Assembly (NCBI RefSeq): GCF_014252375.1
Contig: NZ_CP059221.1
Location: 444,001 to 508,000, forward strand
Length of the DNA: 64,000 nt
Direction: 5' to 3'
Source of the DNA: Blattabacterium cuenoti
GTDB lineage: Bacteria; Bacteroidota; Bacteroidia; Flavobacteriales; Blattabacteriaceae
Of this stretch, positions 50,161 to 61,986 are shown piece by piece. The notes under the pieces are model-generated. The model ran no database searches. It was not told the origin of the DNA and worked only from the letters and a program-made list of their open reading frames with translations. Made by a program: the position numbers and the translations under genes. Every line of letters begins with the position of its first letter. Position 1 is the first letter of the stretch.

Positions 50161-50673
50161 TTACATTTTATTACAAGAATTGTTGATCGTTTTTTTTATT
50201 AAAAAAATAGTATAAATTAAAATTTCAAAATAAATTTTTTTTAGTTTTTTATTAGATAATCTATCTAAATTTTCCTTTAAATCTAAAATTTTTTTTATTA
50301 AAATATTTATATCAGAATTTATACAAAAATTCATATTATTAATAATATTTAATGTATTTCTTATATTTTTCTCATAAAAATTTATAACATCATAATTTGA
50401 TATTTTATTATTTTTTATATAAAAAACATCTAATTTAATTAATGCAATTAATAAATAATTAATAATATCTATATATGTATCTAATATATTTTCTCCTTTA
50501 ACGTGATAAAATCCTTTTAAAGAAATATTTCTTATTCTGATAATTTTAATGAAAATTTGATCTATAATAGAATGATTTTTTAAAATTTTCCACGATAAAC
50601 CATAACTTTCTAACTTATAGAAAAAAATTTTCTTACATCTTTTAATAAAAAAATATATATAATTATAATTCAT
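50161..50673 (-). CDS. DUF1599 domain protein
   Basis: Conserved Bacteroidetes protein of unknown function. I start it at the ATG at 50673 (170 aa), where the chain begins MNYNYIYFFIKRCKKIFFYK as homologues do; an in-frame start at 50757 adds 28 hydrophobic residues unlike the family and runs into folP. The signature YGLSWKILKNHSIIDQIFIK followed by RIRNISLKG identifies DUF1599. The family tends to sit beside folP and tpiA, as here. Some DUF1599 proteins resemble nucleotide-binding all-alpha folds, but function is unknown. Confidence 0.85.
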   Translation of the reverse strand: MNYNYIYFFIKRCKKIFFYKLESYGLSWKILKNHSIIDQIFIKIIRIRNISLKGFYHVKGENILDTYIDIINYLLIALIKLDVFYIKNNKISNYDVINFYEKNIRNTLNIINNMNFCINSDINILIKKILDLKENLDRLSNKKLKKIYFEILIYTIFLIKKTINNSCNKM

Positions 50674-50711
50674 AACTAAACTAAAATTAAAATACAATAA
50701 AAAATAATTTA

Positions 50712-51548
50712 ATAACAATAAATTGTTCTGGTACTTTATTAAAATTTGACAAACCAAAAATTATGGGGATTGTTAATTTAACTCCTGATTCTTTTTATGA
50801 TGGAGGTTTTCTTGATTCAGAATTAAAAATATTGAAACATGTAGAATTTTTAATAAAAAGTGGAGTTGATATTGTTGATATAGGAGGATGTTCTACTAAA
50901 CCAGGATCTAAAATAATATCAGAAGAAAAAGAATTAAAAAGAGTAATAAATCCAATTAGAGCAATAATAAAAAACTTTCCAAAAATTTTAATATCTATAG
51001 ATACGTTTAGAAGTAAAATTGCAAAAGAAGCAATAGAATCAGGAGTTGTTATTGTTAATGATATTTCAGGAGGTGAATTAGATAAAAAAATGTATTCAAT
51101 AATAAGTAAATTCCAAATACCATACATATTAAATCATATGAAAGGAATTCCAGAATATATGCAAAAAAATATTTTCTATAAAGAAAATATAATAATAGAA
51201 ATAAATAAATTTTTTTCAAAAAAAATTTTCTTATTGAAAAAATATGGAATAAATGACATTATTTTAGATCCTGGATTTGGATTTGGAAAAACAATTAAAC
51301 AAAATTTTCAATTATTAAAACATATAAATTTATTTGGTTTTAAAGATTATTTAATATTAATAGGAATATCTAGAAAATCAATGATAAAAAATTTATTAAA
51401 AATATATAACAATAAAAATTTATTAAATGCAACTTCTATTATACATACAATAGCGTTAATAAAAGATGTAGTAAAATTAATTAGAGTTCATGATGTTAAA
51501 GAAGCACTAGAATGCATAAAAATTATAGATTTTTATAAAAAAATTTAA
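50712..51548 (+). CDS. folP: Dihydropteroate synthase
   Basis: Joins p-aminobenzoate to the pterin in folate synthesis. Motifs NLTPDSFYDGG, CSTKPGS, VNDISGG, DPGFGFGKT, GISRKS and RVHDV are all present. The first ATG is at 50763, but 17 in-frame residues before it (ITINCSGTLLKFDKPKI) match the FolP N-terminus, and no ATG, GTG or TTG occurs between the upstream stop and 50763. I therefore place the start at the ATA at 50712, giving 278 aa; a truncated protein from 50763 (261 aa) is the alternative. Divergent from DUF1599. Confidence 0.9.
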   Translation: MTINCSGTLLKFDKPKIMGIVNLTPDSFYDGGFLDSELKILKHVEFLIKSGVDIVDIGGCSTKPGSKIISEEKELKRVINPIRAIIKNFPKILISIDTFRSKIAKEAIESGVVIVNDISGGELDKKMYSIISKFQIPYILNHMKGIPEYMQKNIFYKENIIIEINKFFSKKIFLLKKYGINDIILDPGFGFGKTIKQNFQLLKHINLFGFKDYLILIGISRKSMIKNLLKIYNNKNLLNATSIIHTIALIKDVVKLIRVHDVKEALECIKIIDFYKKI

Positions 51549-61348: not shown

Positions 61349-61864
61349 TTATAAAGGAAGGACTCCACTAATATCTTTTAATTTAAAATTTTTAAGATTA
61401 TTATACATCTCTATACCTTTTTTAGCATGTAAAATAGTTCCATTTAAATTGGATATTGTTACATTTTTTTTATTAAATATTTTTTTTTTATTTTTATCCC
61501 AAAAAATTTCATCAGTTTTAAAAAAATATCCATTAGGGGTTAATATTTTAATATTTCCTTTTATATGAAAAAAAATCATTTTAAATGATTTCATCCAATT
61601 TCCTCTAATATAAATAAGTTTATTATTACTGTCATAAACAACTAAATAAATTCCATTAGGAAATATTGTATAATAGTTATATTCTTTAATTAAAGGTGAA
61701 TATATAAAATATTTTGTAATTCCATTTTTTTTAAAAAAAATACTTGTTTTTATAAAAATGTTTGATGGAATTTTATTTCTATTATATTTATAAATTTTAT
61801 TTACATTATCATTATCACATGATAATAAAAATAAAAATAATATAATAATTAATTTTTTTGATAT
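61349..61864 (-). CDS. lptC: LPS export protein LptC, lipoprotein form
   Basis: Periplasmic LptC-type protein that passes LPS from the inner membrane towards the outer membrane. The first ATG (61594) gives only 81 aa, but the frame stays open upstream to a stop at 61898-61900, adding a lipoprotein signal KKLIIILFLFLLSC with lipobox LLSC and further LptC-like sequence (NGITKYFIYSPLIKEYN, FPNGIYLVVYD, LIYIRGNW). No ATG, GTG or TTG lies in that extension, so the start is probably ATA at 61864 (171 aa) or 61873. Then ILTPNGYFFKTDEIFWD continues in the known part. It precedes corC by 11 bases. Confidence 0.8.
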   Translation of the reverse strand: MSKKLIIILFLFLLSCDNDNVNKIYKYNRNKIPSNIFIKTSIFFKKNGITKYFIYSPLIKEYNYYTIFPNGIYLVVYDSNNKLIYIRGNWMKSFKMIFFHIKGNIKILTPNGYFFKTDEIFWDKNKKKIFNKKNVTISNLNGTILHAKKGIEMYNNLKNFKLKDISGVLPL

Positions 61865-61913
61865 ACTACTTATTATTTTTATTGTAATTTTGTTTATTTA
61901 TACAATTTATAAA

Positions 61914-61986
61914 GGTATCTTAGCTCAGTTGGTAGAGCAAAGGACTGAAAATCCTTGTGTCCCCGGTTCGATTCCGGGAGATACCA
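61914..61986 (+). tRNA. tRNA-Phe (anticodon GAA)
   Basis: Complete cloverleaf: acceptor GGTATCT/AGATACC, D arm GCTC/GAGC, anticodon stem AAGGA/TCCTT around CTGAAAA (anticodon GAA), and T arm CCCGG/CCGGG with loop TTCGATT. The discriminator is A and CCA is not encoded. It lies between the lptC start and the bamA end. Confidence 0.97.

Follow-up and report, generated by a model that had tools for sequence, protein, structure and literature searches.

The folP gene of this Blattabacterium, which encodes dihydropteroate synthase, is probably translated from an AUA codon at position 50712, and we put the probability of this reading, drawn from sequence comparison, at roughly 0.68. The window, as the whole stretch of 64,000 nucleotides that was analysed is called here, spans 444001-508000 of contig 1 of the genome G000. 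The second contig of G000 (3,320 bases) matched 14 plasmid records at 60-80% identity, and as 12 of them come from Blattabacterium, the cockroach endosymbiont, the genome is assigned to that genus. According to the proposed mechanism, the initiator fMet-tRNA (anticodon CAU) would pair with the A and the U of AUA and tolerate a third-position C-A mismatch. The first residue of FolP would still be methionine, and the yield would probably be below that from AUG. The change from ATG to ATA would be a single G-to-A step in a genome of 20.6% GC. It would be tolerated because AUA or AUU already serves this translation system as the start of some genes, with no Shine-Dalgarno sequence. Nor does folP seem to stand alone in this, as glnS, lptC and infC appear to do without an ATG as well. 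It is also likely that the genus as a whole uses AUA and AUU starts without Shine-Dalgarno sequences, stably in glnS, lptC and infC, probably in a MATE transporter gene, and, as a new case, in the folP of this species.

The features of the folP region, in window coordinates, are given below.

50161 to 50673, minus strand: DUF1599 gene, divergent from folP
50691 to 51548, plus strand: folP (dihydropteroate synthase) open frame from stop to stop, preceded by TAA at 50688-50690, with matches to TIGR01496 and PF00809
50693 to 50698, plus strand: TACAAT, a possible -10 element upstream of folP; G009 and several relatives also have this word upstream
50709 to 50711, plus strand: TTA, a weaker alternative start; the TTG found ahead of the site in G019 and G020 aligns with it
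50712 to 50714, plus strand: ATA, the proposed folP start codon; 35 of 38 folP genes from the genus have ATG in this column
50763 to 50765, plus strand: first in-frame ATG, the conserved internal Met of the M-G-I-x-N motif; the protein from here would be 17 residues shorter

The identity of the product as dihydropteroate synthase is given by the TIGR01496 equivalog (279.5 bits against a cut-off of 162.6) and by PF00809 (226.1 bits). A preliminary description of this DNA had claimed that none of the 24 codons between the TAA at 50688-50690 and the ATG at 50763 (50691-50762) is ATG, GTG or TTG, and reading of the frame confirmed it. Further in-frame ATA codons, which that description did not list, are present in this stretch at 50697 and 50718, along with the TTA at 50709. 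The translation around the site reads ...L-I-T-I-N-C-S-G-T-L-L-K-F-D-K-P-K-I-M. With the trinucleotide frequencies of the window (GC 20.6%), the chance of finding no canonical start in 24 codons is P = 0.43. The absence is thus unremarkable in itself, and therefore the homologous position must carry the argument. As the DUF1599 gene is divergent, folP has its own short upstream region, 50674-50711. If TACAAT served as the -10 element, the leader before the ATA would be about 7 nt long, and a leaderless transcript is possible on that assumption. A comparison of the region with a plasmid collection returned short or weak matches only, and the FolP protein had no relative in the genome_contigs collection.

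Searches covered up to 41 genomes of the genus, G000 included. The folP gene is present in 38 of them and was not found in G040, G048 and G051. In G002 (L031) and G023 (L032), it is split into two frames. At the codon matching ATA 50712, 35 of the 38 genes have ATG and the window has ATA; G020 has CTA and G019 has ACG, each with a TTG one codon before the site. The earlier claim that this ATA stands where homologues have Met is thereby upheld. A tree of 36 genomes, built from folP and part of glnS, places G009 (84% identical) as the sister of the window, followed by G043 and G016, and these three relatives all have ATG; G019 and G020 fall on a different branch. Since the nearest relatives keep ATG, the change to ATA is private to the lineage of the window. 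The preliminary description had left a choice between AUA initiation and a lost start codon. Each is partly true: only in this lineage did the ATG of the relatives become ATA, and for the gene as it now stands AUA initiation is to be preferred, because glnS and lptC of the genus, which lack an ATG start, keep ATA (ATT in some glnS) at the onset of conservation.

Another reading, an unlikely one, holds that translation begins solely at the ATG at 50763, that FolP lacks its first 17 residues, and that the codons upstream are a recent relic. This ATG is the first canonical start in the frame, and the product from it still scores 275.8 bits for TIGR01496, with nearly the whole catalytic domain kept. 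Short N-termini are also known among dihydropteroate synthases, the match of 1ad1 starting at query residue 14 and those of Sul1-Sul3 at residues 15-17, where the Met of 50763 is query residue 18. However, even these chains align one to four residues before that Met, and nowhere else is it the sole start: a canonical start is found at codon -17 or -18 relative to it in all 37 other folP genes of the genus. Codons 2-17 also look constrained, having 3 synonymous and 1 non-synonymous differences from G009 and a dN/dS of 0.07 against 0.178 for the remainder, though these numbers are small. The N-terminus appears to show no sign of decay in this low-powered test on one short branch, which argues against decay. 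The context score, a weak measure, is low for this ATG, at the 28th percentile of ATG starts against the 78th for ATA 50712.

An assembly error at 50714, with A standing for the G of a true ATG in the organism, is quite unlikely. The ATA is carried by one genome only, which speaks against the AUA reading in so far as the change could be recent and harmful, or such an error. Compared with G009, several genes of the same genome are split, in two cases at A-runs, and these splits may be real or errors. They are, nevertheless, insertions or deletions, whereas position 50714 is a substitution outside any long homopolymer. A second genome of the species was looked for and not found among the genomes searched.

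Initiation at another non-canonical codon, namely TTA 50709, ATA 50697 or ATA 50718, is improbable. The site of the TTA is occupied by TTG in G019 and G020, and its context score reaches the 84th percentile by the same weak measure. UUA, however, mismatches the initiator anticodon at two positions, and TTA-ATG is common in relatives with ATG, so the TTA is probably ancestral and not a decayed TTG. Finally, a dispensable folP decaying in this lineage is very improbable: the gene was not found in three of the 41 genomes and is broken in two (G002, G023), but the pseudogene test on the folP of the window was negative, with an intact 285-codon frame and a dN/dS of 0.178 against G009.

As for the machinery on which initiation at AUA 50712 would depend, the genome has 33 tRNA matches, and ARAGORN called three CAU tRNAs, making no call for one match (L266). 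No tRNA with a UAU anticodon was called by ARAGORN on the loci covering these 33 matches. With no UAU tRNA and a CAU initiator present, the test for an altered genetic code or an altered initiator was negative. One of the three CAU tRNAs carries a G-G-G/C-C-C anticodon stem, which we take to be the hallmark of the initiator tRNA. In this tRNA (L217, 1500-1574, minus strand) a C1xU72 mismatch was seen by eye, the usual mismatch of initiators being C1xA72. The gene for IF3 was found in 26 of 26 genomes searched. At the place where the E. coli protein has Arg99, the infC loci (L066-L091) of the genus and of free-living relatives in the order read KEIRFGP or similar, a variation that may bear on start-codon stringency. 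In the 90 sites compared (30 of glnS, 22 of lptC and 38 of folP), the longest Shine-Dalgarno match to AAGGAGGT within -20 to -4 is 0 or 3 nt. Bacteroidetes mRNAs lack such sequences (PMC6847099). In vitro, base pairs 1 and 2 must be Watson-Crick and the third is more tolerant, but IF3 disfavours weak pairs, a point against the AUA reading (PMC10158994).

The window holds a second gene of this kind, lptC, located as follows.

61349 to 61897, minus strand: lptC open frame with a lipoprotein signal peptide; no ATG, GTG or TTG before codon 102; PF06835 at 21.3 bits against a cut-off of 21
61874 to 61876, minus strand: ATA, the proposed lptC start, first ATA of an ATA-ATH-AGT block kept in 22 genus genomes
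61914 to 61986, plus strand: tRNA-Phe(GAA), divergent from lptC

The gene was matched in 34 of the 41 genomes, and the counts were made on the 29 in which a script detected the lipobox. G021, G006, G054, G002 and G043 were dropped for want of one, and among these the genes of G006 and G002 are likewise without a canonical start. Between the stop and the lipobox Cys, 18 of the 29 genes have no ATG, GTG or TTG at all. An upstream ATG is present in two, 30 and 33 codons before the Cys, which weighs against the AUA reading. The remaining nine have TTG or GTG, which in all but one case falls within the hydrophobic stretch, 5-8 codons ahead of the Cys; in G045 it is a TTG 57 codons upstream. The in-frame ATA-ATH-AGT block was found in 22 genomes (20 in the anchor column, together with G012 and G014), all of them open for more than 150 codons. 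Its second codon is ATA in 12, ATC in 7 and ATT in 3, and the first is invariably ATA. As the second codon varies like an internal isoleucine and the first does not, the first ATA is taken as the start. A frameshift rescue from an ATG in another frame was considered and rejected, an ATG in any frame lying within 90 nt before the lipobox Cys in only 2 of the 29 genomes.

A survey for startless genes was carried out on 244 kb of G000 (43% of the contig), with 259 frames kept, 217 of which reached at least 150 bits to G009. It added two identified genes that lack a canonical start: the aminoacyl-tRNA synthetase gene glnS (413332-414984) and the MATE transporter gene (408507-409859). The frame 527409-527624 of the same contig, also startless, was too short to be used as a case. 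The first canonical start of glnS in G000 (L096:9332-10984) is codon 157 of the frame. This gene was detected in all 41 genomes of the genus, and from the stop to the conserved F-I-E-K core none of them has an in-frame ATG. Thirty have no canonical start of any kind upstream of the core, and eleven have a TTG, which lies 8-21 codons upstream in seven and two codons before the core in four and which counts against the AUA reading. Exactly six codons before the core, 30 of the 41 genes have ATA and one has ATT. An ATA or ATT is present within codons -4 to -8 in every genome, G000 having ATT at -4, and conservation is poor before this codon and good after it. Inside the glnS genes of the genus, isoleucine is encoded by 1068 ATA, 1010 ATT and 170 ATC codons. 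Judged against such counts, 30 ATA to one ATT at -6 is not ordinary isoleucine usage, although the related genomes are not independent of one another. Relatives in the order with this type of glnS have an ATG start in six of six; the other nine of the 15 genomes gave weak matches only.

A second survey, of positions 1-200000 of G010 against G017, G009 and G024, kept 173 frames and flagged 21. When this list was read by eye, infC alone stood out as startless across the genus; rnpA and a deaminase frame were set aside as they look like frameshift cases. N-termini of infC were obtained for 21 of 26 loci. One proved to be a different piece; the 20 whole ones, from the genus and from relatives in the order, have no canonical start in the first 18 codons. 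The MATE gene (L096:4507-5859), which follows gcvT, is a weaker case, as differences in A-run length blur its start. Its loci were found in 30 of the 41 genomes, one being left out because of a stop within the stretch. In 23 of the 29 loci printed there is no canonical start before the match, while three have ATG and three TTG only.

Taken together, a canonical start at or upstream of the homologous start is absent from folP and lptC of the window and from glnS of G000. An AUA or AUU codon occupies the homologous Met position, which is given by alignment in folP and taken from the onset of conservation in glnS and lptC. The non-AUG start is kept among relatives in glnS (ATG in 0 of 41) and in lptC (upstream ATG in 2 of 29), and in folP the ATA occurs in 1 of 38.

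Starts of this type are known from other bacteria. In E. coli, infC and pcnB start at AUU. They resemble the present genes in that a start with a mismatch at the third base is read by the initiator tRNA, but there the codon is AUU, the genes are others and the host uses Shine-Dalgarno sequences. Flavobacterium johnsoniae belongs to the same phylum and likewise initiates independently of Shine-Dalgarno sequences, with upstream bases that matter; that work (PMC6847099) concerns these bases (A at -3) and not the choice of start codon or AUU. The closest set comes from S. aureus, where single genes start at AUA (infC, ccpN and citZ) or AUU (cvfC1), as here, and where reporters with these codons yield about 10-30% of AUG (PMC13009471). 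There, cvfC1 is conserved among staphylococci and ccpN is also found in B. subtilis. The S. aureus infC, cvfC1 and ccpN, however, have a predicted extended Shine-Dalgarno sequence as a guide, whereas the match is at most 3 nt here, and apart from infC the genes differ. Hence, none of the glnS, lptC and folP sites joins an AUA or AUU codon to an extended Shine-Dalgarno sequence. A literature search, with subscription journals mostly outside its coverage, listed no report of AUA starts in Blattabacterium.

If the genus-wide AUA reading is true, the genes concerned could form a small set with output tied to the level of IF3, as AUA and AUU starts are sensitive to this factor. In these genomes, glnS, lptC and this folP would look truncated or broken to gene finders restricted to ATG, GTG and TTG. 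With AUA starts kept in tens of species and no Shine-Dalgarno sequences to help, the genus would be a natural test of start-codon choice where such pairing is not used, and folP would exemplify how AT-biased mutation can replace AUG by AUA in a gene that survives the change.

Some other genes on contig 1 of G000 were observed to be interrupted. Those at 521493-522564 (leuB-like, named by eye) and 537800-538250 each show, in comparison with G009, a frame change at an A-run that splits them; the runs may be real, with slippage making them tolerable, or the assembly may be wrong there. In the gene at 525833-527403, the split comes from a deletion of 16 bases with respect to G009. On the minus strand, rplR (359206-359565) apparently starts at TTG, and the first canonical start in G009 is at a like place.
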